Origin: Pseudomonadota bacterium
GTDB lineage: Bacteria; Desulfobacterota; Desulfobacteria; Desulfobacterales; RPRI01
Length of the DNA stretch: 54,455 bases
Direction of reading: 5' to 3'
Assembly (NCBI GenBank): GCA_018901125.1
Contig: JAHIFE010000222.1
Coordinates: 1-54,455 of the forward strand
Positions 28,029-49,817 of this stretch are shown here, piece after piece. The notes under the pieces were generated by a model. That model saw only the letters and a list, made by a program, of their open reading frames with translations, did not search any database and was not told the DNA's origin. The position numbers and the translations under genes were made by a program. Each line of letters opens with the position of its first letter. Positions within the stretch are counted from its first letter, which is position 1.

Positions 28029-29462
28029 CTATCTTTTCAGTTTCCCGCTTGCAGTTTTTTCAAGAGTTTTTACCGAAACAACCTCTTTTGGTACTTTATA
28101 GGAAGGAAGCAGACCATAACAAAACCTACGTATCTCGTTAGTATCATAATCAGAATTTATATCATCTCTTAATATAATTTTTGCACAAGGAAGTTCGCCA
28201 TATCGGGTATGATAAACCCCATAAACAAGGGATTCCTTAACAGCAGGATGCCGGTTTAAAATTGATTCCACTTCTTCAGGAAATATTTTCATACCGGTAA
28301 AATTAATAACGTTTTTATCTCTTCCGGAAATATGAAGAAAGCCGTCATTATCTATACTTCCCAGATCTCCTGTCTTAAACCACCCGTTCAGCAAAACTTC
28401 TTTTCTGTTTTTCCAGGGTGAAAAATAGGCATCAAACATACCTTTGCCTCTGATAATAAGTTCTCCTACGCCATTTTCATCCGAGTTCTCAATTTTTATA
28501 TCATAATCCGGAAGAACTTTTCCTGCACAACCTCTTTTTGATTTAATGCCGGAAAGGTTGACAAAAGGAAGACCCACTTCAATTATGCCGTATGCTTCAC
28601 AAAGCTCAAACCCGAACTTGTGATAAAATTCAGTTGCTATTGATTGCGGCAATTTCATAGCAGTCGATACGGCAATGCGAACAGTTGATAATAAATCAGA
28701 TGATAAATCATCCGAATTTGCAAGTACGTGGTAATGAAAAGGAGAAGCATAAATAAATGTAGGCTTGCTGTTTTTTATACTCTCAATAAATGACACGGGA
28801 AAGGAGGAGCCGCAAAGAACTATTGTTGACGCCCGCCTTAGAAAAAGAAGAATAGTTACTACAAAATGGTAGCTCATGGAAAGCACCCATATGACGATAT
28901 CTTCAGAAGTCATGCATAGTGCTTTGTCGGCAGCATCCGTTCTTTCAATTATGGATTCATGTGAAAGTACAACTCCTTTGCTTTCGCCGGTTGTGCCGGA
29001 TGAAAATCTTATGAAAGCAGGCTTTATCGCATAGTAATCAACAGAAATATTATCTTCAGCATTTCTGTTGTGCATAAAAAACTCTTTATTATTTTTGAAT
29101 CCTGAAAAAATGATCTTCGAATCTTCCTTTAAATAAAATGAGTTGTCAAAAATAAGATGATTAACATCGATTCTTTTTAAAACAGCATCTGCTTCATCCC
29201 ATGAAAGAGATGGCGATATCGGAACCACAACCGCTCTGACAGAAAGTATTGCAAGACTGATAATAATATAATCGATGCAGTCATTGCAAAGCACTGCAAC
29301 CCTGTCCAAAGGTTTTATGCTGCAATCTTTGAGACTTAAAGCCAGATTATCTGCACTACCCATAAGATCTTCATAAGATATGCTCTGATCCTCTTCGATT
29401 ACTGCAATTTTTTTACGATAATCACTCGTCTCTTTCTTTATTGTTTCAAAGATATTTACCAT
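28029..29462 (-). CDS. AMP-dependent acyl ligase
   Basis: The 477-residue ANL-superfamily enzyme has the ATP-binding FSSGTTGESKGVVLSHE (near residues 152-168), AYGIIEVGLP, the hinge GWFKTGDLG and the C-terminal catalytic lysine in KTASGKLKR, where the protein ends. It activates a carboxylic acid as acyl-AMP and passes it to CoA or an ACP. In aryl polyene clusters a comparable ligase loads the aryl starter; here the substrate could equally be a fatty acid. It is the last gene of the 26-kb operon-like run, overlapping the upstream radical SAM gene by 7 bases. Confidence 0.9.
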   Translation of the reverse strand: MVNIFETIKKETSDYRKKIAVIEEDQSISYEDLMGSADNLALSLKDCSIKPLDRVAVLCNDCIDYIIISLAILSVRAVVVPISPSLSWDEADAVLKRIDVNHLIFDNSFYLKEDSKIIFSGFKNNKEFFMHNRNAEDNISVDYYAIKPAFIRFSSGTTGESKGVVLSHESIIERTDAADKALCMTSEDIVIWVLSMSYHFVVTILLFLRRASTIVLCGSSFPVSFIESIKNSKPTFIYASPFHYHVLANSDDLSSDLLSTVRIAVSTAMKLPQSIATEFYHKFGFELCEAYGIIEVGLPFVNLSGIKSKRGCAGKVLPDYDIKIENSDENGVGELIIRGKGMFDAYFSPWKNRKEVLLNGWFKTGDLGSIDNDGFLHISGRDKNVINFTGMKIFPEEVESILNRHPAVKESLVYGVYHTRYGELPCAKIILRDDINSDYDTNEIRRFCYGLLPSYKVPKEVVSVKTLEKTASGKLKR

Positions 29463-30889
29463 CTCTTATCCGTCAAATAATCTTTATAAATATTATATAA
29501 GGAGAAAATGTATTTTGTTCCCCCTGTAATGGCTCTGTAGAGATCCTTCAAGGGAATTTTTACTTTGTTAACCCGTATAGGGTTAGCCCGTAATGCAAGA
29601 CTGTATAATCTTCCAAAATGCTTATAAAAACGTTTTAATGGAAGTCGTGTCGGAAGCACAGAATGCATGCAATCATAAAAACGGTACGGGTCGCAAATAA
29701 ATCTGTCTTTATTGTCATACCAGGATTTTGTGCCTGGAGAAGGCGAAAGGACAGTAAATGTAACTTCTGCCGGGCATAAGTTTTTCACTTCTTTTTCAAG
29801 CCGCCTGAAGTCATCACGTGTAAAGTCAGGATGGACTATGAATGCCGCATGAAGTGTTATTCCCAATTGCTTTAAAATCTCGATTGCTTTCCTGTTTGTT
29901 TCAACGTCTGTCCTTTTTGAATATTCATCCAGGCGACTTTTGTCCATGGATTCAAGGCCCACATATACCAATTCCAGACCGGCTTTTTTCCAGATCTTAA
30001 AAACCTCAGGATATTTATCTATAGTATCGCTTCGTGCCCAGCTTATATATTTCTTTTTAATGCCCCGCTCTATAAGAAGCTCGGCAATCTTAGTAACCCT
30101 TGCAGGGTTTAAAAACATTTCATCATCTACAAAATATATATGATCTTCCAAAATAGCTGCTATCTCATCCACAACATCTATTGGACTTCGCTGCAGGTAT
30201 TTGCCATGCATAAGAAAAGGAATAACGCAAAAAGAACAGGAAAAAGCACACCCGATGGAAGATCTCAGACTCGCAACGCTTGGAAACATGGTATCGAGTT
30301 TTCCCGACTGGCTTGATGTCCAAACACAAAAGTACTTTGATCTTTGGACAAGATCTCTTCTCGGACGGGGTATTTCATCAACTAAAGGATACTCAGGTGG
30401 CGGAAGATTTGTTTTTGCTACAAAATCAGGATCTTTCGGGGAAAGAGCACGGTTATCATAATGCAGTGTTTCACCTTTTTTAAAACGGCGAAGCATCTCT
30501 CTAATAACTGTCCCGCCCTCCCCTCTTACTATAATATCTATATGTTCAACAGCATAATCTTGCGGAAGAAGTGTAGCATGCACTCCACCGACAAAAGTTA
30601 TAATATACAAATCATAATTTCTAACAATTTTTGCAAGGTTCTTAATAACACGGACATTAGTGCTGTAACCTGAGAACCCAACCATATCTGGAGAAATATT
30701 AACAAGCTCGTTCATAAAAACTTCAACGGGTTTGCTCTCTAAGCTCAAATCCAGAATAAATACTTCATCTTCTTCCGGAACGCCTCCTGCTACTATCTCA
30801 AGCTCAAGAGGTTCAAGATGCAAAAAACCTTCCTGAAGACGCTTTGCCACCAAAAGTTCAGGATAAGGTTTTACAAGCAGTATTTTCAT
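29456..30889 (-). CDS. B12-binding radical SAM enzyme (first of three)
   Basis: The 477-residue protein has a cobalamin-binding-type N-terminal domain (about 1-135: DMVGFSGYSTNVRVI, FVGGVHATLLP) and a radical SAM barrel with the cluster cysteines C214-x3-C218-x2-C221 in GCAFSCSFC. Family members methylate unreactive carbons, rearrange rings or form C-C bonds. The domain lacks the DxHxxG of base-off methionine-synthase-type binders, as usual for this class. It overlaps both neighbours by a few bases, so it belongs to the lipid-pathway operon. The reaction cannot be predicted. Confidence 0.88.
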   Translation of the reverse strand: MKILLVKPYPELLVAKRLQEGFLHLEPLELEIVAGGVPEEDEVFILDLSLESKPVEVFMNELVNISPDMVGFSGYSTNVRVIKNLAKIVRNYDLYIITFVGGVHATLLPQDYAVEHIDIIVRGEGGTVIREMLRRFKKGETLHYDNRALSPKDPDFVAKTNLPPPEYPLVDEIPRPRRDLVQRSKYFCVWTSSQSGKLDTMFPSVASLRSSIGCAFSCSFCVIPFLMHGKYLQRSPIDVVDEIAAILEDHIYFVDDEMFLNPARVTKIAELLIERGIKKKYISWARSDTIDKYPEVFKIWKKAGLELVYVGLESMDKSRLDEYSKRTDVETNRKAIEILKQLGITLHAAFIVHPDFTRDDFRRLEKEVKNLCPAEVTFTVLSPSPGTKSWYDNKDRFICDPYRFYDCMHSVLPTRLPLKRFYKHFGRLYSLALRANPIRVNKVKIPLKDLYRAITGGTKYIFSLYNIYKDYLTDKRW

Positions 30890-34490: not shown

Positions 34491-35534
34491 TTATTTTTTT
34501 ATGTTGATAATGGATATTTGATCAGACCGGCAAATTCTGACACAATTTATTCCGGTTATATTTGTTTCTGATGTTGAGGAGCATAAATTCATCTGTGAAT
34601 GATTATCCAAAACAGGGCACCTGTACACATGTTGTTTTTTCAACATCAGTGAAGCTGCCGCAAAATTAAATGCGCTTCCTATCTTCATGCTTCCGAAAAC
34701 AGGCGAGTACCCGGCTAGCGGCAAACCGGTATTTGAGATTTTTTCATAATCCGATTCATCTCCCGTCATTCCGTCTGCATCAATAATTATAATATCAGGA
34801 TTGTTTTTTGATTCACCGAATAATTTTATTTCACTAACTTCACCGTAATTATTTTTGCATTTTTCTTCAGATAACATGAAGAATGCTGCACCTTCGCCCA
34901 AAACGGAAACAGGACAATCCGAAAATAAGAAAGGTCTTATTTTTCCATCCTCAGCAGTCTTCATTTTCATCTTGCACGCATATTCCATTACAACGCTTAA
35001 TTCGTCAACACATCCGCATAAAACATGTTTGCATCGTTCTTCTTTAAGCCATGATTCGGCAAGAAGCAACGCATTTTGAAACGGATATGAAAAGTCAGTA
35101 AGAGTTACTGTAGGGCCACAGCTGCCAAGAACAGTTGATATATATGATGCAGCAGCATTGTGAACGGAGTTTGAAAATTTCGTTGGCGATACACCGGCAT
35201 CTCCATAATCGAGAATATCATCAATAAAACTAAAAGTTGTTGTGTGCGGACCAAAAGCTGTAGCAAGTATTATTCCGATGGTTTCATTACTATTTAATGT
35301 TATGCCGCTGTCTTTGAAAGCATCAAGAGCAGAAAAAACAGCCATTTTGCTGAACTTGTCCGCTCTTCTTATTTTTTTTGACAAAGCTGCATCAGACAAT
35401 ACTTCTTTAGCTACCCGGTATGCCGGAAATGAATCTGTCCACGAAGGATCAGTCCAACCCTGCATTAAGGCATTTTCAAAAGAATCAATGCCCCGTCCGC
35501 GTGTAAAAATTATTCCAATTCCGGAAATAAACAT
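34491..35534 (-). CDS. Ketosynthase-like chain-length factor (no active cysteine)
   Basis: The 347-residue thiolase-fold protein aligns with ketosynthases around GPTVTLTDFSYPF, where Ser149 takes the place of the nucleophilic cysteine. Further on, the GHTLGAAG motif is reduced to IGSAFNFAA, removing a catalytic histidine. It is therefore probably a catalytically silent partner of the intact ketosynthase just upstream (35552-36715), like chain-length factors in type II polyketide and aryl polyene systems. Adjacent genes 17 bases apart support a heterodimer. It is somewhat shorter than a normal KS. Confidence 0.8.
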   Translation of the reverse strand: MFISGIGIIFTRGRGIDSFENALMQGWTDPSWTDSFPAYRVAKEVLSDAALSKKIRRADKFSKMAVFSALDAFKDSGITLNSNETIGIILATAFGPHTTTFSFIDDILDYGDAGVSPTKFSNSVHNAAASYISTVLGSCGPTVTLTDFSYPFQNALLLAESWLKEERCKHVLCGCVDELSVVMEYACKMKMKTAEDGKIRPFLFSDCPVSVLGEGAAFFMLSEEKCKNNYGEVSEIKLFGESKNNPDIIIIDADGMTGDESDYEKISNTGLPLAGYSPVFGSMKIGSAFNFAAASLMLKKQHVYRCPVLDNHSQMNLCSSTSETNITGINCVRICRSDQISIINIKK

Positions 35535-38063: not shown

Positions 38064-38798
38064 TCACATCTCCTTTTTAAATAAAATCAGTTGTAAAAGA
38101 CGTCTGCCTACAAGCCTTGTATGCATGAGAGAAATACGGACATTATCTGTTATCGGTTTAAAAGCCGAAATCCTTTCCTGAGACTTTGGATACCAAACTT
38201 CTATATCTACAGTCTTTAATTTAAGCCCTGCCCATACGGCTCTTGCAAGTATTTCAGCTTCGAAATCATAATGGGAGCCATAAAACTTCATCCTTGAAAT
38301 ATATTTTAGCGGATACGCTCTGAATCCGCTTTGGCAGTCATTGAGAGTAATGCCGGTTTCTACGCGCAACCAGAACGAAGCGAATTTTCTTCCAAACCGG
38401 CTTGAACCGGGTACATTCTTAATATTAAAATTTCTGCAACCAACAACAATACTGGTTTCATCATCTTGCAAAAGGGGTATAAATTTTTTCAGGTCTTTTG
38501 GATAATGCTGACCGTCCGCATCTATAGTTATCATAAAAAGACCATCTTTTTCTGCTATATATTTTGCAGCAGAAATTATGGCCTCTCCTTTTCCTCTGTT
38601 TTTTTCATGGCTTATTACTTTAATATCTGAACCTGCAAACATTTGAGCAATATTTGCATCAGTGCTTCCATCATCAACAACAAGAATATTTTTTAAGTAC
38701 AAACTGCATTTATCGGCGACACTTTTTACCGTAGCACAATTGTTATAAACCGGAATAACACACCAGATCCGGTCTGTTTTAACATCACTTTCCGGCAT
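38064..38798 (-). CDS. Family 2 glycosyltransferase (dolichol-phosphate-mannose-synthase-like)
   Basis: Taken from ATG 38798 (244 residues) because the GT-A domain begins right after it: CVIPVYNNCATVKS, VVDDGSTDANI, KNRGKGEAIISAAKYI and the metal-binding TIDADGQHYPKD. A longer reading from 38918 would lie mostly within the upstream gene. RSRFGRKFASFWLRVETG and DCQSGFRAYPL resemble polyprenyl-phosphate or lipid glycosyltransferases, and APE clusters include such a gene. It probably glycosylates the lipid anchor or the product. It overlaps the radical SAM gene end by 14 bases. Confidence 0.86.
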   Translation of the reverse strand: MPESDVKTDRIWCVIPVYNNCATVKSVADKCSLYLKNILVVDDGSTDANIAQMFAGSDIKVISHEKNRGKGEAIISAAKYIAEKDGLFMITIDADGQHYPKDLKKFIPLLQDDETSIVVGCRNFNIKNVPGSSRFGRKFASFWLRVETGITLNDCQSGFRAYPLKYISRMKFYGSHYDFEAEILARAVWAGLKLKTVDIEVWYPKSQERISAFKPITDNVRISLMHTRLVGRRLLQLILFKKEM

Positions 38799-40158
38799 TT
38801 GCTCTATGCTTTCTTGTTTTTTTCCCGCCAGGAACAAGCATATCCCACAGTGATCCTGAATAACCAAGTTTGTGCAAAAACTGCAAACTCCCATCCATGG
38901 CATCCGGAGGAAAAACACAATTTCTTATACCCGAGAATCCGTCCGTCAGAGTCTTTTCAAGCCATTGTCTTTCAATTCCCGGAGCAATATAATAAACTGA
39001 TTCAAGAAGAGAATCTTTATTTGAAACAAGCCCTTCATCAAGTGCAATCCTGTGAAGGATCGTATTCGGAAGTATTCGAATACCCATGAAAATAAACGAT
39101 ACCGTATTTTTAAGACTTTTTATGTTTTCAAGTCCCTCCATAACCGTATCTTTGGTTTCGCCGGGACAGCCAAACATATAAAAATGTGCAGTTGCCACCT
39201 GGTGTCTGGCAAAAAGATCATTACACTCAGCAATATCTTTGAATCTGAATGGCTTTCCAAGCCTTTTTAAAGTAGTATCAGTTGATGCATCCGCACCTAT
39301 TTCAACAGCTTTAAGCCCGGTCTCTTTCATAAGAGCAATATGCTCGTCTTTTAATCCTTCGGGTTTAAAAAAAGCCGTCCATGGTATATTAATCTTTCTG
39401 CTTTTCATTTCCCGAATAACTTCAATGTAGGCTTCCTCATCGTCATTAAACACCGAATCTGTAAAAAAGATATAGCCTACCTTGTGATCGTTTATTAAAA
39501 TCTCTATATCGTTTACCACTGATGCCGGATCACGCAAACGAACAGCCGACCCTTCCAGAAGCGGATAAGAACAGTAAATACATTTATGATTACAACCGCG
39601 TTTTGTCTGTAGTGAGGCTATGTTTCCGCTTTTTTGATAAAACTGCATGATGTCCAAATCATAGCTGGCAGATGGTATTTCTTTTCCTTGCAGAAAATTT
39701 GAAGACCGGATGCAACGGTTTTCCGGATATATTCCTTTTTGCGCATTATCGGCGAATTGAACCATCAGAGATTCGCCCTCTCCTACAATCCCGTAATCTG
39801 CTCCGATTTTGTCTAAGACAGCTTCAGGCATAATCGAAAATCCTGATCCACCCATAACAACAGGCACGCTGCTTACCTGGCGGACTCTTTTAACAATCTC
39901 TTCGACGGCATCTATATAACGCTGTTCGTTTAAAAGGTTAACATTATCGATGTTTCTCATCGATATGCCGATAATGCCGGGGGAAAAAGATCTGATTTCA
40001 TTTTCAATCGATTCTAAGGACATATTGTTTTGAAGAAAATCGATTTGGCGCACCGCATGACCTGCATTGTTTAATGCACTGGAAACCATTGCTATTCCCA
40101 GCGGATAAACATAATATGGTGTGCTGGCTACATTTGCGCCAATCAGTAATATCTTCAT
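38785..40158 (-). CDS. B12-binding radical SAM enzyme (second of three)
   Basis: The 457-residue protein has a cobalamin-type N-terminal domain (GIIGISMRNIDNV, VVMGGSGFSIMPE) and radical SAM cysteines C189-x3-C193-x2-C196 in RGCNHKCIYC, followed by IFFTDSVFND, a GxIxGxxxE-like region and FMGIRILPNT in the C-terminal part. Its start overlaps the stop of the third radical SAM gene by 4 bases, so the two are made together and may act in sequence. Possible jobs are methylation, cyclisation or double-bond chemistry on an ACP-bound chain. Confidence 0.88.
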   Translation of the reverse strand: MKILLIGANVASTPYYVYPLGIAMVSSALNNAGHAVRQIDFLQNNMSLESIENEIRSFSPGIIGISMRNIDNVNLLNEQRYIDAVEEIVKRVRQVSSVPVVMGGSGFSIMPEAVLDKIGADYGIVGEGESLMVQFADNAQKGIYPENRCIRSSNFLQGKEIPSASYDLDIMQFYQKSGNIASLQTKRGCNHKCIYCSYPLLEGSAVRLRDPASVVNDIEILINDHKVGYIFFTDSVFNDDEEAYIEVIREMKSRKINIPWTAFFKPEGLKDEHIALMKETGLKAVEIGADASTDTTLKRLGKPFRFKDIAECNDLFARHQVATAHFYMFGCPGETKDTVMEGLENIKSLKNTVSFIFMGIRILPNTILHRIALDEGLVSNKDSLLESVYYIAPGIERQWLEKTLTDGFSGIRNCVFPPDAMDGSLQFLHKLGYSGSLWDMLVPGGKKTRKHRANAGK

Positions 40159-41429
40159 ATTTTTCCGGCCCCGCTTTTTGACAGTTTTCTTTTTCGTCCG
40201 CCTGCAACAGAATATTTTTTATGTGTTCCGTCGAGTTTTTCTTTTTCAATTACTTTGATAAACAGCTTGGCCATCTGGATTTCCTTACACATCTTCGAAT
40301 AAAAGGTATCCCAGGCGTATTCATACATTTTCTGAAGTGAATCAACGCTCATCTTTGCGGGTTTGAAGACAACCTCATCAGCGGAATAACGTATCCAGTC
40401 GTTATGAAGAATCCTGTTTTCTTTTTCAAGCTTTGCTCTTATCGGTGTGTGAGGAAACGGGGTAAGAATTGTAAATTCGGCAAGATCAAGATCAATGTCC
40501 AGTAAAAAATCAACAAGTCTTTTTATATAATCTTCATCATGATCATCTGTTCCAAGGATTATAGTGCCTTCAACGCCGATGCCTCTTTCTTTTAAACGCT
40601 TTACTCTGTTTCTGATATGATCGGAAGTGTCGACAATCGCCTGATAAACATACCAGCAGCCGGCTTTAGCAGCAAGATCGAGAATTTCATCATCATCTTT
40701 TATAGGATGTGATATCCATTTCTTTTTTAACGGAGCTATTGCTTTAAACAAAGCTTTTTCCCACTCATCATCCTGGGCCAAAGAATTATCCACAATAAAC
40801 AAACGATTGTTTTTTATGCTTTCCATTTCAGCAACAACTGCATCAATAGGCCGCGGCCGAAATTTTCTTCCCCCAAGATATGGCGTACAGCAGGGAAAGC
40901 AGTTAAAACGGCAGCCGCGGGATGCATGCATAAGATCAACCATCTGAACCCCGCGAAAATTATATTTTTCCCGGTTTAGTATACTTCTTCTTGCAGTTCC
41001 TATAAGAGATGTTTCAGGAAAATCATGATAAAAATCATATAATTTTTTAAGTTTTCCGTTTTCAAAATCACTTATAACATTATCAAAATGACCTTCGGCT
41101 TCTCCCACAAACACAGAATCTGCATGCAGCATAGTCTCATCAACATGCAGCATTGTTGCTATGCCGCCAAATATCACTTTTTTACCTCGTGCCCTGTATT
41201 CATCAGCTATTTCCCAGGCACGGGGTATCTGGCATGTAAGCATAACGGAAAGCGCAATCAAGTCTGCATTTTCATTAAAATCAAGTTGATCAATATTTTC
41301 ATCGCAGAATGAAATTTCTATATCATCTCTTACGGCAGCGGCAAAAACTACTGGTCCATGAGGAGGAAGGTTAAATTCCGGCTGGTTTTTTAATTTGGGC
41401 CATCTTGGATAAATCAGTTTTATCTTCAC
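40155..41429 (-). CDS. B12-binding radical SAM enzyme (third of three)
   Basis: The 424-residue protein has the N-terminal B12-binding-like fold (DLIALSVMLTCQIPRAWEI, KKVIFGGIATML) and cluster cysteines C173-x3-C177-x2-C180 in RGCRFNCFPC. The C-terminal part is unusually basic (GGRKRKLSKSGAGK). It lies 34 bases downstream of the half-size KS-like gene and overlaps the next radical SAM gene. The substrate cannot be read from sequence; operon position suggests the acyl chain or its lipid anchor. Confidence 0.88.
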   Translation of the reverse strand: MKIKLIYPRWPKLKNQPEFNLPPHGPVVFAAAVRDDIEISFCDENIDQLDFNENADLIALSVMLTCQIPRAWEIADEYRARGKKVIFGGIATMLHVDETMLHADSVFVGEAEGHFDNVISDFENGKLKKLYDFYHDFPETSLIGTARRSILNREKYNFRGVQMVDLMHASRGCRFNCFPCCTPYLGGRKFRPRPIDAVVAEMESIKNNRLFIVDNSLAQDDEWEKALFKAIAPLKKKWISHPIKDDDEILDLAAKAGCWYVYQAIVDTSDHIRNRVKRLKERGIGVEGTIILGTDDHDEDYIKRLVDFLLDIDLDLAEFTILTPFPHTPIRAKLEKENRILHNDWIRYSADEVVFKPAKMSVDSLQKMYEYAWDTFYSKMCKEIQMAKLFIKVIEKEKLDGTHKKYSVAGGRKRKLSKSGAGKI

Positions 41430-41463: not shown

Positions 41464-42135
41464 CTATTTCAAATCTGACAGAGCTGATATCATTTCATCA
41501 AATGATGATTTTTCTGCTGCAAAAATCACATTTTCAAGTGTTAAACTCCTTTTGTTTGAAATATCATCTTTATTTTCCAGAACAAAAGATATGGCATCGG
41601 ATTCTTCGGCATTAACCGCAAGCATAGCTGTGGCTTCTTTCTCAATAATGCTTCTTTTGGCAAAACCAAGAAGAGAAGATAATTTATTTTCCTTAAAAGA
41701 CATATGAAGCAATGGACCGCTTAAACCAAAATGAATCGCAGCTTCTGCCAGAGGTGTTGATGGCAGCGTATATACAAAAAGATTTCCCCTTGCAAGTATT
41801 CTCCCGCTGTCAATATAATCCTTATAATAATTAATATTTGATTCCAGACATCCTTCTTCGTTGGTGCCCATAATCCCCATATCCCTTTTATGGGCATGTT
41901 TATGATCATTGGAATAGGATATGCCGGCGTCTTTTAGGGCAAGGGCTGCGCAAAAGCAGGTCGTTCTTGATATCATATCGAATCTTCCAAAGTTTTTTAC
42001 AGGGTATAAAAAAATTGATTCATTTTTAAAACAAGAATGCAAAGAATTAAATCCTTCATGAGATTTTTTATCTTTTTCTATTATACATCCATATTCTTTA
42101 TGGTTAACCCAGCCTATACCGGTTACAACAATCAT
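41464..42135 (-). CDS. Half-size ketosynthase-like protein (degenerate)
   Basis: Read from ATG 42135, eight bases past the stop of the intact KS upstream, the product is 223 residues. Its start MIVVTGIGWVN is the typical ketosynthase opening, and TTCFCAALALKDAGI matches the helix before the active site. The nucleophile region has become GLSGPLLHMSFKEN without a cysteine, and the whole second half with both histidines is missing. It could act as a truncated chain-length-factor or structural partner of KS B (42143-43267). The frame is intact, arguing against simple decay. Confidence 0.68.
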   Translation of the reverse strand: MIVVTGIGWVNHKEYGCIIEKDKKSHEGFNSLHSCFKNESIFLYPVKNFGRFDMISRTTCFCAALALKDAGISYSNDHKHAHKRDMGIMGTNEEGCLESNINYYKDYIDSGRILARGNLFVYTLPSTPLAEAAIHFGLSGPLLHMSFKENKLSSLLGFAKRSIIEKEATAMLAVNAEESDAISFVLENKDDISNKRSLTLENVIFAAEKSSFDEMISALSDLK

Positions 42136-42142
42136 GATATCC

Positions 42143-43267
42143 CTATATCTTAAGTATAAGGGCAGAATTAACTCCCCCAAAACCTGAGTTGGTTGATAGC
42201 GTATAAGAGCTTTCAAAAGTTTGCGGATATGGAAAAACCCAGCCTTCGGCTTCTTCATCAATATCAAATAAATTTACAGTAGGCGGAGTAATTTTTTTAT
42301 CCAGAGACTTAAATGAAATTATTATTTCGAGAAGGCCGGCAGCACCCAACGTATGACCTATCCCGCCTTTAACTGAATATACCGGTAATGTGTTTTCAGC
42401 AAAAACTGACCTGATCGCTTTCATTTCCATCGAGTCATTATATACAGTCCCTGTTCCATGGGCGGATATAGATCCGATCTTGTTTTCTGCGATACCAGCA
42501 GATTTCAATGCAGTATAAATCGCCTGGTAAAGGCCACTTCCATCTCTTGAAGGACCGGTTATGTGGTTTGCATCGTTAGTCAAACCCCAGCCTGCAACCT
42601 CTCCCATTACTGCCGTGTTGCCTTTTGCAGCCCTTTCTTCGCTCATAAGAAGCATGTAGCCTGCTGCTTCACCAAGGCTTAAACCCTGTCTGTTTTTATC
42701 AAAAGGTTTCGCAACATCAGGATCAAGAGCCATAAGAGAAGAAAAACCGGCTGTTACAAATTCCGAAACACAATCGCAACCGATAACAAGAATACAATCA
42801 TAAACCTTGTTTCGTATCAGTGATGCAGCTCTTGAAACTGCTATGCTTGATGAGGCACATGCCGAGGAAACAACCATTCCCTTACCAAAGGTTCCGGTAA
42901 GAAGCATTATCTTATCAAGCAGACAGTCCGGCAGACTTTTTTCCGGATTGTTTTCTTCATCTAAAACAAACCGTTGCACAAATTCTATATCACCATTTGT
43001 TGTGGCAAGAATTATAAAAGTGTCATACGGTATTTCAATTGAACTCTTATCAAGAAGCGGCCTTAACATCTGCATGACAAGCGACTCGTCCGGTTTCATT
43101 GTCAAACCGGGAACAGTTGCAGCATTGCCGGTTTGCAGGTTATGTGTTGGAAAACGTTCGATAGGACGTATGGCCGTTTTTCCTGAGAAAAGCCCTTCCC
43201 AGCACACATCTGTTCCCCAGCCATAAGAAGTAACCATATCAGCTGCTACTGAAACTACTTTTATCAT
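42143..43267 (-). CDS. Beta-ketoacyl-ACP synthase, intact (KS B)
   Basis: The 374-residue enzyme keeps C137 in VSSACASSS, H270 in ISAHGTGT and H305 in GGIGHTLGAAG. It resembles the extension or starter ketosynthases of aryl polyene clusters. The downstream half-size KS-like gene follows after 7 bases, and the thioesterase gene upstream overlaps it by 4. Its acyl-chain preference cannot be told. Confidence 0.9.
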   Translation of the reverse strand: MIKVVSVAADMVTSYGWGTDVCWEGLFSGKTAIRPIERFPTHNLQTGNAATVPGLTMKPDESLVMQMLRPLLDKSSIEIPYDTFIILATTNGDIEFVQRFVLDEENNPEKSLPDCLLDKIMLLTGTFGKGMVVSSACASSSIAVSRAASLIRNKVYDCILVIGCDCVSEFVTAGFSSLMALDPDVAKPFDKNRQGLSLGEAAGYMLLMSEERAAKGNTAVMGEVAGWGLTNDANHITGPSRDGSGLYQAIYTALKSAGIAENKIGSISAHGTGTVYNDSMEMKAIRSVFAENTLPVYSVKGGIGHTLGAAGLLEIIISFKSLDKKITPPTVNLFDIDEEAEGWVFPYPQTFESSYTLSTNSGFGGVNSALILKI

Positions 43268-43765: not shown

Positions 43766-44137
43766 TCAAATTACCATCAGCTTTAATTGCATTTCGGCAA
43801 TCTTTTTATCACCGCTTGTTACTGATGCCTTTACTTTTATTTCGTTTGATATTTCACCCGGTTTTGTAGAAGTAATAATAATTTCCTGATTGGCAGATAC
43901 GGGAGCAATAAACTTTGCCAGCAAAATCTGTGTTAAGCAAATTTTATTTCCATAAAAATTTTCAAGCATTGCAATTACCGCCTGAATTTTACATACACCG
44001 GGCAAAATAGGTTTGTCTGGAAAATGGCCTTTAAAACCTGCAAATTCAGGAGAAAATATAAATCTTGCTTTTATACCTTCTTCACTTTCCATAAGCTCTT
44101 GCATAGATTCATTTATCTGTTGCATCAGCATGCTCAC
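43766..44137 (-). CDS. FabZ-like 3-hydroxyacyl-ACP dehydratase
   Basis: The 123-residue hotdog protein contains GHFPDKPILPGVCKIQAVIAM, with the catalytic histidine of FabZ/FabA-type dehydratases in GHFP and a downstream helix that usually holds the acidic partner; here it reads KIQAVIAM, so the typical Glu/Asp is not obvious. It would dehydrate 3-hydroxyacyl-ACP to the enoyl form, extending the conjugated chain. It overlaps the upstream lipoprotein gene (ATGA). Confidence 0.82.
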   Translation of the reverse strand: MSMLMQQINESMQELMESEEGIKARFIFSPEFAGFKGHFPDKPILPGVCKIQAVIAMLENFYGNKICLTQILLAKFIAPVSANQEIIITSTKPGEISNEIKVKASVTSGDKKIAEMQLKLMVI

Positions 44138-44805: not shown

Positions 44806-47241
44806 TTAATATCCTTTATTGCCTTTGATCCAAAGCCTGTAAATAGATGGAACGGCAATAACAGATGATAGAAATCCAGCCAGCAATCCGGTAAAAAGTG
44901 TTATACCAATTGAAAATAACAGGGGGTGTTTTGCAAAAAGAAGGACGCCTGTTCCTATCAATGTTGTTAAGGCTGCTAAAAAAACCGCTGTTACAGTTCC
45001 TGTATTATGCCCATAACGGCATTTATAAACCATGAATATTCCATAGTCACTGCAAAGGCCTACAAGAATCATGACAGCAAGAATACCGGGAGCATTAAGA
45101 GCCAGGCCTGCAACCGGAAGAACTCCCAATGCTGCCGCCACTCCGATGAAAACGGGTATAAGCGCAAGAATGGTCAGCCTGATATCTTTAAGCAATATCA
45201 TGGTTAAAATAGGAAGTAACAGTGCTGCAATTATTGAAAGATATATAATTTCATGTGAAATTGCTTTTGAAAGAGCTTTTGAAATGCTTTTCCGGGATAC
45301 CAAAAATGTTTCGGGATGGGCTTTGCTTATTTTAGCAAACTCTGTAATATAGGATTCTTCATCCGGAAAAAAAGTTATAACCTGCCAGCCTTTTTCATTT
45401 TTTAACACAAACCTTTCTTTAATTCTTTTTAAGAATTCATTCTTGATTACATCAACTGAAACATCAGTGCCTTCATAAAGGTGCTCAAAAAATGGTTCAA
45501 AAGCATTCTCTGCAAAATTATAAGCCTTACCTTCCTTAGAAAGCAGCTTTCTTAATTTCAACACTTTTTCTTTAGTCCAGAAATTATTCCATCTAAGGGC
45601 ATTTTCCGTTCTTGTTTTTTCCGAAGGCCATAACGACGCAAAACTTGAAATATTTTCATTTCCAAGTTTTTTAACTGCCTCATTGTATATAAGTTCGTTT
45701 ACATAGATCGCTTTTTCAAGATCTTTTTCCGAAACAACCAAAATGGCAGGATTCTCTTTTCCTCCCCATGCCTTCTGAAACGACTCTTCTGCTTTAAATA
45801 TCTGAGGATTACTTCCGTCAAATTGTTTTATATCACTGTCAAATACAGTTTTGGATGAGAAAAAAAGCGCCGTAATCATCAAAATTGCCCAAAAGAAAAT
45901 CCATATTTTATCCTGTGTCTTTTCAGAAACAGATTTTGGAAAAATTGAAAAGCTTTCAAAAAGGCCTTTTATCTTATACTCATCTTTTCTTTCAATAAAA
46001 ACCGGCAAAAAATATAATGAACAAAGAAGCGAAAAAATAATACTGATGATTGAAAAAAGCGCAAGCTGCCGGTATCCTGAAACATCCGAAAAGAAAAATG
46101 CTGCAAAAATACCTATTGTTGTTAAAGATCCTGCTATTACCGGTTTTGCAACCTGTTTAACAGCATCGGTCTTATTGCTGCAGCATCTTATGGCTGTATA
46201 TACGTGTATTCCATAATCAATTGAAATTCCGGCTATCGTTGCTCCCATGCCAATTATAAAATATGAGAGTTTATCTAAAAAAACAGAAGACAGGCTTATA
46301 GCAACAGCAATCGAGGCAAGGGGAATCATAAAAACCAGGATTGCCTTTATGTCACGGAAAAAAAACAAAAACACAAGAAAAAAAGCAATTGAAGCAATAG
46401 TCGTTGTAAGTTTTATATCACTTTTTATAACATCTTCATTGCTTAAAGTATGAAGATGGGCGGAAATCATATCTACACTAATATAAGGCGGTAGGGATTC
46501 AAGTTTTTTATCAAGATATGCTATAAGCTTACGCGAGCCGAAACCATCGCTTACAGGAACGGAAGTTTTGAGTATCATCAGGGCATGCTTTCCGTCCCGA
46601 CTCAGAAAGTGGCCGTTATTTATTATAACATCATAACCTGTGGAAGAAGAAAACTTTTGCAATTTTCCAAGCAAACCGGTTTTTAAGCCAAGAGGATCAG
46701 TTCTTATAAGCGGTGTAGAAAACATGCCGGAAGGAGAAAGAATCTGCCTGTAATTTTTTTGCAGTATTGATTTTATTCCTTCAGTATTTATTAATGAATC
46801 TATCTTTTCTAAAGTGCCCTTACCGGTTAACTGGGGTAAATATTTCAAAAAATCAAACAAATCTTTTGCTGATTCGTTTTCTGAAACACTGTAAAATACA
46901 TCTGTGATAAAAGATGGTTTTAATATTGATGAAAGCCGGTCAACTTCTTTGATAAGATCAATTTCGGAATAAGCGGAATCATTGAGTTTTACTGAGAGTA
47001 TTATCTTGTCTGAAAAATCCGATTCCCTTAAAAAACGCATGCTTCTTATAATTTCACCATTTTCAGGAAGCATCGTCTCCATATTGTTGTCAAAGGAAAC
47101 AAAAAACATACCGGCTATGGAAATTGTAATAATAATGAAAAAAATACAGACGGTAAGCAATTTTTTCGTTTTATTAATATTCTCAGATTTTAAAGATAAG
47201 TTATCTGACAATTGGAGCAACTCTCCATACAGCAGGATCAA
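44806..47241 (-). CDS. MMPL-family lipid exporter
   Basis: The 811-residue protein has the RND/MMPL duplicated layout: an N-terminal membrane helix (about 27-48), a large periplasmic loop, helices around 285-420 with a conserved ISIDYGIHVY, a second loop and a second helix bundle with CSDYGIFMVY. It exports lipids across the inner membrane using the proton gradient. The frame opens at ATG 47241, but a TTG at 47211 follows GGAGAG at good distance and may be the true start, since the LolA-like gene ends at 47201. The LolA-like carrier upstream and lipoprotein downstream complete the export module. Confidence 0.92.
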   Translation of the reverse strand: MILLYGELLQLSDNLSLKSENINKTKKLLTVCIFFIIITISIAGMFFVSFDNNMETMLPENGEIIRSMRFLRESDFSDKIILSVKLNDSAYSEIDLIKEVDRLSSILKPSFITDVFYSVSENESAKDLFDFLKYLPQLTGKGTLEKIDSLINTEGIKSILQKNYRQILSPSGMFSTPLIRTDPLGLKTGLLGKLQKFSSSTGYDVIINNGHFLSRDGKHALMILKTSVPVSDGFGSRKLIAYLDKKLESLPPYISVDMISAHLHTLSNEDVIKSDIKLTTTIASIAFFLVFLFFFRDIKAILVFMIPLASIAVAISLSSVFLDKLSYFIIGMGATIAGISIDYGIHVYTAIRCCSNKTDAVKQVAKPVIAGSLTTIGIFAAFFFSDVSGYRQLALFSIISIIFSLLCSLYFLPVFIERKDEYKIKGLFESFSIFPKSVSEKTQDKIWIFFWAILMITALFFSSKTVFDSDIKQFDGSNPQIFKAEESFQKAWGGKENPAILVVSEKDLEKAIYVNELIYNEAVKKLGNENISSFASLWPSEKTRTENALRWNNFWTKEKVLKLRKLLSKEGKAYNFAENAFEPFFEHLYEGTDVSVDVIKNEFLKRIKERFVLKNEKGWQVITFFPDEESYITEFAKISKAHPETFLVSRKSISKALSKAISHEIIYLSIIAALLLPILTMILLKDIRLTILALIPVFIGVAAALGVLPVAGLALNAPGILAVMILVGLCSDYGIFMVYKCRYGHNTGTVTAVFLAALTTLIGTGVLLFAKHPLLFSIGITLFTGLLAGFLSSVIAVPSIYRLWIKGNKGY

Positions 47242-47872
47242 TAGGAATATTTAAATGTGTGTCCACAAACAGCAGAGAGGTTGTGTCCCCGCTTTTTTCT
47301 TCGATTAATATTTTGTTAATATATTGCTCATCTTTTCTGAAATCAACCGTTACGCTTTTAATAACATTAGCTGCAAAGCTTGCAGGTTTGGGAACAAACT
47401 TGAGAGATACCGGTTTATCACTAAGCAGGATAACATTATATTCTTTCATAAGTTGGGTATATGTGCCTGAAAACCATTCCCGCATCTGACCGATTACAGC
47501 TTCAAAAGCCGGATTTTTTGACAGAGAAATCTTTTGAACCTTGTTTGTATCTTCATCCCACTGGCTGATTGTATCTTCCGACATAACCATGCTATATTTT
47601 AATGGCTTATTCACAAGCCAGGCCAGACGATATGGCTTTTCTATATAAACCGTTCCCTTTAATACAATCTTATTGTTAAACACAGCCAGCTCTTTTTCCT
47701 GAACAAAACCGGTTTTTAAGGTTTTTATCCCTGACATTTTATTTTCAAGTCTGCTTAAAACTTTATCTAAACCAATCTTGTTTTTGGCCTCAGTATCTGT
47801 TTCCTGTGCAATTGCAGATATCGACATCAGGATAATCAGCAAAACAATAAATATTTGTGACAACTTAATCAT
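47201..47872 (-). CDS. LolA-like periplasmic lipid carrier
   Basis: Taken from ATG 47872 (223 residues), right after GGAAAGGAAAAC; the longer reading from 47914 begins in low-complexity sequence. A signal peptide ends near AIAQE. The mature part has the LolA-type half-barrel segments FVQEKELAVFNNKIVLKGTV, YRLAWLVNKPLKY and FVDTHLNIPID. In aryl polyene clusters a LolA-like protein works with the MMPL pump, probably ferrying the lipid across the periplasm. It is followed by the pump gene, overlapping if the pump starts at 47241. Confidence 0.88.
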   Translation of the reverse strand: MIKLSQIFIVLLIILMSISAIAQETDTEAKNKIGLDKVLSRLENKMSGIKTLKTGFVQEKELAVFNNKIVLKGTVYIEKPYRLAWLVNKPLKYSMVMSEDTISQWDEDTNKVQKISLSKNPAFEAVIGQMREWFSGTYTQLMKEYNVILLSDKPVSLKFVPKPASFAANVIKSVTVDFRKDEQYINKILIEEKSGDTTSLLFVDTHLNIPIDPAVWRVAPIVR

Positions 47873-47932
47873 TAGTTTTCCTTTCCCTGTTCCCCATCCC
47901 CCGAATCCCAACACCTGATCCCCGATCCCTGT

Positions 47933-49057
47933 TCATTGATCACCAACCTTCGGCTCCTGGTCGATGTTATGCCAGATCTTAATCTCTCCTAAAGCAAGCA
48001 CTTCGTTATCTCTTTTTACAATTCCTTTTACTATGCCGAAACCACCAAACTTGGCATACTTGAAAACGAAGACGGAAAGCCTGTCTCCTATTCTTGCTTT
48101 TGATTTTATTATGAGCTTTTTTGCGCCCAGAAGATATCCTTCAGGAGCAGTATCCGATGTTTCCATATTCCTGAAACCATTAAGTGCTGCAATAGCTTGA
48201 GCCATCATTTCAAGGTAGGCAACATTATCGATACTGCCGTCTTTTTCCGCAAAAGGCATCCCTTCTCTGATCAATACCGAACATCCGGCACTGCGTTCTC
48301 CTAATATTTCTATTGTATCAATAAGTTTCATAGGAGGTATCTGTGGTATTATTCCGTCAAGTGGCAGTGGAAGAGAAATTATATCCTTTTTGTGTTTTTC
48401 ATTTCTTTCACATATTGGATCTGAAGCAAGATAGTCTCCTGTAATAAGATATGATCTGCCGCGGCATCCATAACAAATCTCAGCTTTTTCACATATGCCA
48501 CATGGCCCTTTAATCTTATTTTTATAGTTTCTCAAATCGCTGTAAATTTCACTGTCTTTTATAATATCGGATATCTTCTGAAATCGAATGTTTCCCAAAG
48601 GAATTTGAAGTCCGGGACAGGGCAAAACATAACCATACGATGTAATGACACAGGAAAATCCATGGCGCATGCAAAACACCGGATTATTTTCTTCTGAATA
48701 AGCATCACAAGAATATTCTTTATTTAAGATAGTTGTATCTATATCAAGACTTTTTGCAAACAACAGAATTTTTTGCATATCAGCAAAATATGCAACCTCA
48801 CTTCCGGAAAAAACAATCTTTTGTACGCCAAGAGCTTTTGCCTGTTTAATTATATCGCAGATCTCTTCGTCTGAAAGTTTGTTTTCATGCAAATTCTCAG
48901 GATTAATAAAAGCAGTTGAAAACCCGAAATCAACAGGATAACCTGTATATATTTCAAGAGCATAAAGGCTATCTGATCTGTGCTGATTCATATATTTATC
49001 ATGATATTTATCATGGAAAAATTCAGAACCGAATATTTGGCTGCAAGACTCAGGCAT
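47933..49057 (-). CDS. Degenerate radical SAM/SPASM region fused to an ApeP-like dehydratase domain
   Basis: The 374-residue protein joins two unrelated parts. Residues about 30-225 look like a radical SAM barrel with a SPASM extension: SPASM cysteines C129, C136, C147, C186, C189, C195, C198 and C216 are present. The CxxxCxxC motif expected near TGYPVDFGFSTA is gone, with Pro, Gly and Thr at the three positions, and the GGEP-like motif is FSGSE. Residues 230-365 form a hotdog domain (IPPMKLIDTIEI, AYLEMMAQAIAALNGF) like the dehydratase ApeP. A 12-base tandem duplication gives HDKYHDKY near residue 15. It overlaps the acyltransferase gene by 8 bases. Confidence 0.78.
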   Translation of the reverse strand: MPESCSQIFGSEFFHDKYHDKYMNQHRSDSLYALEIYTGYPVDFGFSTAFINPENLHENKLSDEEICDIIKQAKALGVQKIVFSGSEVAYFADMQKILLFAKSLDIDTTILNKEYSCDAYSEENNPVFCMRHGFSCVITSYGYVLPCPGLQIPLGNIRFQKISDIIKDSEIYSDLRNYKNKIKGPCGICEKAEICYGCRGRSYLITGDYLASDPICERNEKHKKDIISLPLPLDGIIPQIPPMKLIDTIEILGERSAGCSVLIREGMPFAEKDGSIDNVAYLEMMAQAIAALNGFRNMETSDTAPEGYLLGAKKLIIKSKARIGDRLSVFVFKYAKFGGFGIVKGIVKRDNEVLALGEIKIWHNIDQEPKVGDQ

Positions 49058-49817
49058 CTCTTTTATTTTCCATTATTTTAATATGATCCATCATTATTGA
49101 GCGAATTTGGTTCTTTAACTTATAAGGGCTAAAGTCCTTATATTTATCATATGTTATAGAATTAAGCTTATGTATTTTAATAACTCCTGGCTTAAGAAGA
49201 AGCGTTCCTCTCGCAGGGATATTCTCATTTCCGGTAATACATATAGGCACAATCGGGTATCCCGATTTAAGAGCCACTCTGAAAATTGAACTATGAAACT
49301 GCCCCACAGAACCATCTGCGGAGCGGGTTCCTTCAGGAAAAGCGGCAATTGAAATACCATCGTTTAAATGCCCGATAGTTTTTTTAACAAAATCTTCAAA
49401 CGCCATTTCCCTTACACTCAGATATCCGGCACACTTTGCCGCAAAACCAAGTACCGGAATTTTAAAAGGCCAGATATTTACAACCTGTATAACCTCTTCA
49501 TAAGGAAGATAAGCCATCAGAAAAGGATCCGAAGCGGATCTGTGATTACAGATAAAAATAAAAGGCCCCGGATGATTAATTGATGTTTCAAAGTCCTTAT
49601 AAGATATCCGCACGAAAGGAAAAGGGAGTATCCTGCATACACCAATACCATACCAGGCAATCGCCCTTCGAAATTTTTTCATTGCTTTCCGGTGGGATAT
49701 AAAAGGCGCCTGAAAAGCTATAATAAGAGCAAGAAAAGGAATCCCAAAAGCTGAAAAAGTAATAAAGAATGAATAAAATATTAAATTAAATATAAATAGT
49801 TTAAAAAAATCTTTCAT
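49050..49817 (-). CDS. PlsC-type 1-acylglycerol-phosphate acyltransferase
   Basis: The 255-residue membrane protein has N-terminal hydrophobic segments and the H(x)4D motif in NHRSASDPF (H92, D97), later FPEGTRS and VPICITGNENIP. It acylates a hydroxyl group, classically lysophosphatidic acid. In this operon it may attach the pathway's acyl chain to a glycerolipid or lipid carrier. A 159-base gap with no recognised feature lies before the ACP gene upstream. Confidence 0.9.
   Translation of the reverse strand: MKDFFKLFIFNLIFYSFFITFSAFGIPFLALIIAFQAPFISHRKAMKKFRRAIAWYGIGVCRILPFPFVRISYKDFETSINHPGPFIFICNHRSASDPFLMAYLPYEEVIQVVNIWPFKIPVLGFAAKCAGYLSVREMAFEDFVKKTIGHLNDGISIAAFPEGTRSADGSVGQFHSSIFRVALKSGYPIVPICITGNENIPARGTLLLKPGVIKIHKLNSITYDKYKDFSPYKLKNQIRSIMMDHIKIMENKRDA

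Follow-up and report, generated by a model that had tools for sequence, protein, structure and literature searches.

An apparently decayed radical-SAM/SPASM enzyme retained on an ApeP-like dehydratase half in Desulfobacterales

The window analysed here (54,455 nucleotides of DNA from a bacterium of the Desulfobacterales) encodes a 374-residue protein whose relatives mark it as the decayed product of a radical-SAM/SPASM/ApeP-like protein of three domains: this fusion is also present in eight other Desulfobacterales genomes, there with the radical-SAM domain intact. The explanation that we favour, with a probability of roughly 0.6, is that the ancestor would have been a bifunctional enzyme (radical-SAM barrel, SPASM domain and ApeP-like hotdog), that the hotdog would form one half of a heterodimeric dehydratase, that the radical-SAM part of the intact relatives would supply a starter acid, and that the SPASM domain would have been retained as a structural module. 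Of this, the homology, the synteny, the pattern of losses and the constraint are shown by the data, and the binding of Fe-S clusters, the heterodimer, the starter chemistry and the scaffold role are inferred.

Results and Discussion

Domain composition of the window protein

The frame of 374 residues at 47933-49057 (reverse strand) is open, without stops. The gene, its parts and its neighbours are the following:

47933..49057, reverse strand: whole gene, dead radical-SAM remnant, SPASM domain and ApeP-like hotdog, 374 residues (ORF, Pfam, orthologues)
48722..48973, reverse strand: radical-SAM barrel remnant, residues 29-112 (BLASTP to the intact fusion L103, alignment, model secondary structure)
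48911..48934, reverse strand: site of the lost CX3CX2C, residues 42-49, VDFGFSTA against CNFHCPYC (alignment and residue table of the fusions)
48410..48673, reverse strand: SPASM domain, residues 129-216, eight cysteines (PF13186 and TIGR04085 above cut-off; seven of eight cysteines invariant in the genus)
47966..48376, reverse strand: ApeP-like hotdog, residues 228-364 (phmmer to 6qsr_B; Foldseek and VIA-align to FabZ and ApeP)
48209..48211, reverse strand: Glu283 (YLEMMAQ), catalytic-type and conserved (invariant in 22 of 22 fusions)
43766..44137, reverse strand: ApeI-like hotdog, putative partner half, with the GHFP histidine and Gln at the Glu position (PF22818; best PDB match 6qsr_A)
49050..49817, reverse strand: acyltransferase gene, directly upstream of the fusion gene, with an 8-base overlap
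47201..47914, reverse strand: LolA-like carrier gene, directly downstream of the fusion gene, a conserved neighbour
44806..47241, reverse strand: MMPL-family exporter, member of the conserved operon

The SPASM domain scores above cut-off in two libraries, at residues 129-189 in Pfam (PF13186, 29.7 bits against 21.5) and at residues 129-216 in NCBIfam (TIGR04085, 30.2 against 27), which rules out a chance pattern for its eight cysteines (C129, C136, C147, C186, C189, C195, C198 and C216). From general knowledge of SPASM enzymes, we take these to sort into Aux I-type and Aux II-type sets. The Pfam matches on either side are weak, both for Radical_SAM at residues 57-112 (17.4 bits, below the cut-off of 29.5), where several radical-SAM family models of NCBIfam also match, and for the ApeP-like PF22817 at residues 237-314 (17.7 bits, below 27).

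In a BLASTP comparison with L103 (described below), the window protein is 59% identical over the SPASM domain and the hotdog and 30% identical over residues 4-112, and residues 112-256 of L103 have no counterpart, so that the barrel is incomplete relative to the intact relatives. About 128 barrel residues are missing, and the remnant is predicted by the model to comprise β1-α1-β2-α2-β3, the remaining barrel being absent. The lost SAM-cluster cysteines correspond to V42, F46 and A49, in register with CNFHCPYC of the intact fusion, and GSEV stands at the site of the GGEP motif. A preliminary description, made from the letters of the window, had already called the radical-SAM half dead, and the loss of CX3CX2C in all seven members of the genus, the missing GGEP and the cut barrel bear this out; it had, however, placed Pro, Gly and Thr (P41, G45 and T48) at the CxxxCxxC positions, which is one residue off, and had overlooked the truncation that BLASTP to an intact relative revealed.

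Structural models were of low confidence, with 6-7 usable sequences, both for the window protein (mean pLDDT 52.6, residues 170-256 below 50) and for the intact fusion (pLDDT 43.9), and offer no support on structural grounds for the N-terminal half; fold searches with them matched mainly the hotdog (residues 248-368) and barely probed the N-terminal fold.

Conservation and operon context

A full-length fusion gene is present in seven of ten genomes of the window genus (including the window itself), the six others being 60-73% identical. All seven lack CX3CX2C and retain the SPASM cysteines, seven of which are invariant across the genus while C136 is replaced once, by Val in G396; the eight retained cysteines and the shared loss of the three others, which the preliminary description had proposed to check, are found in the orthologues with this one substitution. 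An assembly error or a unique fusion is ruled out by the seven genomes, which are syntenic wherever the neighbourhood was read, and an ordinary pseudogene by the absence of internal stops at 60% identity and by dN/dS values well below 1.

In the four neighbourhoods read (G232, G396, G400 and G395) the fusion gene occupies the same slot of a common operon, whose order is FabG, FAD oxidoreductase, KS, ACP, acyltransferase, fusion gene, LolA, MMPL exporter, lipoprotein, ApeI-like protein, thioesterase, KS and B12-radical-SAM enzymes. In G395 the exporter does not stand at this position, which a 76-residue ORF occupies instead (L065 10656-10883). The window cluster holds three B12-binding radical-SAM enzymes (38785-41429 and 29456-30889), two of them in the operon of the fusion gene (40155-41429 and 38785-40158) and the third nearby (29456-30889). 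A short, cluster-conserved ORF at 41464-42267, with no Pfam match, has a low-identity likeness to the KS-like ORF at 34494-35534 and is possibly a chain-length-factor-like protein.

Intact fusions and patterns of decay

L103, from a Desulfobacterales MAG found in a scan of genome contigs, encodes a 496-residue protein with intact radical-SAM and SPASM domains and a hotdog, in the same operon slot. In the GTDB contig scan, run with two peptide patterns that distant cases could escape, full-length fusions came up in six Desulfobacterales-type MAG records and nowhere else. Scanning 389 genomes of the order enlarged the set by seven further intact fusions and by seven altered ones from other genera than that of the window. 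The eight intact fusions (489-502 residues, from other Desulfobacterales genomes) have CX3CX2C, GGEP, the eight SPASM cysteines and the hotdog, and share with the window gene the slot between the acyltransferase and LolA. Intact radical-SAM/SPASM relatives without a hotdog also occur in the phylum. The combination of SPASM and dehydratase pointed out in the preliminary description is a conserved fusion, but it is better read as the decayed state of a radical-SAM/SPASM/hotdog protein, intact in eight other genomes, than as a SPASM domain newly joined to a dehydratase.

The residue table comprises 22 fusions (eight intact, seven of the window genus and seven altered elsewhere). The seven of the window genus have a cut barrel and a lost motif; G465 has a cut barrel with CX3CX2C deleted; G743 has lost both barrel and CX3CX2C; G433 and G751 have a long barrel, but have lost the motif and most Aux I-type cysteines while keeping the hotdog; and three (G741, G622 and G745) keep CX3CX2C though most of the barrel is cut:

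L137 8651-9736: barrel-cut fusion keeping CX3CX2C
L139 8840-9889: barrel-cut fusion keeping CX3CX2C
L140 9315-10403: barrel-cut fusion keeping CX3CX2C

These three truncated forms favour a catalytic Fe-S activity of the protein's own, unlike radical-SAM chemistry, but the motif is lost in all seven genomes of the window genus and the residues after β3 that complete the barrel are absent, and we regard such an activity as very improbable.

All 22 fusions have the hotdog glutamate and the four cysteines of Aux II type. In the tree, G433/G751 and the G741 group stand apart from each other and from a clade that unites the intact forms with G465 and the window genus. Since AU tests reject none of three groupings (all eight intact forms, p-AU 0.38; window genus with G465, 0.25; all truncated forms, 0.07), the number of decay events is not fixed, and a single ancestral truncation is compatible with the data. 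The fusions document a range that runs from the intact bifunctional enzyme to variously decayed forms, and show which Fe-S ligands persist once radical-SAM catalysis is lost.

The SPASM clusters might instead act as a redox or oxygen-sensing module, or as an electron conduit to the B12-radical-SAM enzymes, regulating or serving chain modification. The strong constraint on all eight cysteines and the two B12-binding radical-SAM enzymes in the operon (with a third nearby) fit such a role, but G433 and G751 keep the hotdog largely without Aux I-type cysteines, so that a two-cluster relay is not general, and no redox partner was identified; we consider this role distinctly unlikely.

Selection on the three parts

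Median pairwise dN/dS values (Nei-Gojobori, pairs with dS below 2.5) are rough, many pairs being near saturation; in the window genus they are 0.33 for the barrel remnant, 0.13 for the SPASM domain and 0.13 for the hotdog, and in the intact relatives 0.19 for the radical-SAM part, 0.08 for the SPASM domain and 0.17 for the hotdog. In the window genus the barrel remnant is thus relaxed and the SPASM domain is constrained about as much as the hotdog.

These values bear on whether the N-terminal half is a slowly decaying passenger without present function, the hotdog alone being of importance. A dN/dS of 0.33 in the barrel remnant, about 2.5-fold the hotdog value of 0.13, decay repeated across lineages and the existence of ApeP as a stand-alone protein all speak for a passenger, but the SPASM value (0.13) equals that of the hotdog, and none of the 22 fusions, not even the most decayed, has lost the Aux II-type cysteines. 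We therefore judge a mere passenger to be unlikely, though less so than a redox module. Selection maintains the SPASM domain, most likely for a structural role, and the domain would persist as an Fe-S-stabilised module needed to fold or place the dehydratase.

The dehydratase half and its partner

The C-terminal half had been described as an ApeP-like hotdog, and both a phmmer match to 6qsr_B (1.4e-06) and a fold match to the same chain agree, the latter (Foldseek 4.3e-07; VIA Z 13.4, rmsd 5.2 over 124 residues) having been obtained with the low-confidence model. At the active-site position this hotdog has Glu283 and lacks the histidine. The ApeI-like protein of the same cluster (PF22818, 28.6 bits against a cut-off of 28.5; best PDB match 6qsr_A) is complementary to it, with the GHFP histidine present and Gln in place of Glu. 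According to one study, ApeI and ApeP pair as a heterodimer that has a single active site (PMC8041823). By this analogy, the fusion hotdog (Glu) and the separate ApeI-like protein (His) would build one composite active site that dehydrates β-hydroxyacyl-ACP in polyene chain extension, and the pair is probably a heterodimeric dehydratase that is likely still working. The “chain-modifying dehydratase” of the preliminary description is in this way refined to one half of a probable heterodimer whose other half lies in the same cluster. In a related cluster (G043, L152 2411-3346) ApeP-like and ApeI-like hotdogs are found in one chain of 312 residues.

Stand-alone ApeP genes of other clusters are without SPASM, and SPASM is thus not generally needed for the dehydratase. 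In a literature search, no publication joining “SPASM domain” and “aryl polyene” was found, and nothing that directly links SPASM to hotdog domains, aryl polyenes to radical SAM, or flexirubin to sulfate reducers.

Source of the starter acid

Flexirubin synthesis starts with FlxA (a tyrosine ammonia-lyase) and FlxY (a 4-coumarate CoA ligase), as shown biochemically (PMC3992019). A FlxY-like ligase is present in 21 Desulfobacterota genomes (344-494 bits, none reaching the NCBIfam equivalog cut-off of 520). An intact radical-SAM/SPASM relative is found in 16 of these 21 (in G363 cut by the contig end), adjoining FlxY in 14 and lying on a separate contig in G644 and G668. A FlxA-like lyase lies nearby in three, together with a stand-alone ApeP in G325 and with degenerate fusions in G741 and G433, and none of the 21 has both an intact radical-SAM relative and a FlxA-like lyase. 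The clusters with both lyase and ligase, where ApeP is stand-alone or on a decayed radical-SAM part, are:

L137 1716-4684: FlxA-like lyase and FlxY-like ligase
L155 3850-8667: FlxA-like lyase and FlxY-like ligase
L081 6338-9303: FlxA-like lyase and FlxY-like ligase

In G043 and G203 neither enzyme is on the sampled contig, and a PF00221 match is absent genome-wide. The sole PF00221 match among the sixteen (G446, 670 bits) falls in the higher range of other lyases, and such higher-scoring lyases are probably histidine lyases.

Because the FlxY genomes split into 16 with the radical-SAM relative, three with the FlxA-like lyase and none with both (a 16:3:0 pattern from related lineages, and so fewer than 19 independent observations), the intact radical-SAM/SPASM domain probably supplies the starter acid. 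Most likely, this part would provide an aromatic starter acid that the FlxY-like ligase activates, taking the role that FlxA has in flexirubin clusters. In the window genus there is neither a match to PF00221 nor a strong one to FlxY, and by these comparisons the genus has lost both the intact radical-SAM domain and FlxY: the ligase would have gone, the site for radical-SAM chemistry would have decayed, and a deletion would have removed most of the barrel. A broader proposal, which we put forward tentatively and at somewhat less than even odds, is that anaerobic Desulfobacterota obtain the aromatic starter for aryl-polyene-type synthesis from a radical-SAM/SPASM enzyme in place of tyrosine ammonia-lyase, that this enzyme was fused to the ApeP half in one lineage, and that the window protein descends from the fusion, with its radical enzyme dead but its SPASM domain still serving in the dehydratase. 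This leads to a testable prediction, namely that anaerobic polyene pathways receive their starter acid from the uncharacterised radical-SAM/SPASM enzyme encoded beside FlxY-like ligases.

A stand-alone intact radical-SAM/SPASM gene also lies beside AMP ligases, a condensation-like protein and a B12-radical-SAM enzyme in G513 (L146 810-9320), a region which, with its FAD oxidoreductase, resembles 28-33 kb of the window.

Comparison with known systems

The pseudo-radical-SAM/SPASM families of NCBIfam (TIGR04347, TIGR04150 and GeoRSP_SPASM, TIGR04304) have, judged by their model names, a SPASM domain without a functional radical-SAM site as in the window protein, but its matches to all of them are far below the cut-offs (32 against 525 for TIGR04347 and 13 against 250 for TIGR04150). 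The intact fusions (L103 and its seven relatives) agree with the window protein in the order of their domains, in the operon slot, in the SPASM cysteines and in the hotdog; CX3CX2C, GGEP and most of the barrel are missing from the window protein, and the FlxY-like ligase gene adjoining the intact fusions is absent beside the window gene.

ApeI:ApeP of aryl polyene synthesis (6QSR; PMC8041823) resembles the window system in the match of the hotdog to 6qsr_B, in a Glu without His and in an ApeI-like His protein encoded in the cluster; it differs in that the window protein carries the N-terminal dead radical-SAM/SPASM extension and scores below the Pfam ApeP-like cut-off. APE clusters (gene list in PMC8253772) likewise have LolA, an MMPL exporter, an acyltransferase and several KS genes, unlike the window cluster in its B12-radical-SAM enzymes. 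FASII-like clusters of Kuenenia and Desulfotalea psychrophila, described earlier (PMC2649909), are comparable to the window cluster in gene content. Flexirubin clusters (FlxA, FlxY; PMC3992019) differ in that an intact radical-SAM/SPASM gene replaces FlxA in most of the Desulfobacterota FlxY clusters examined, and in that the window genus is without FlxA and without a strong FlxY. Flexirubin and FASII-like clusters share KS paralogues, CrtI/phytoene-dehydrogenase-like oxidoreductases, LolA and a glycosyltransferase with the window cluster, and the relatives of the window protein resemble them in their PaaK/FlxY-type ligase and SAM radical genes.
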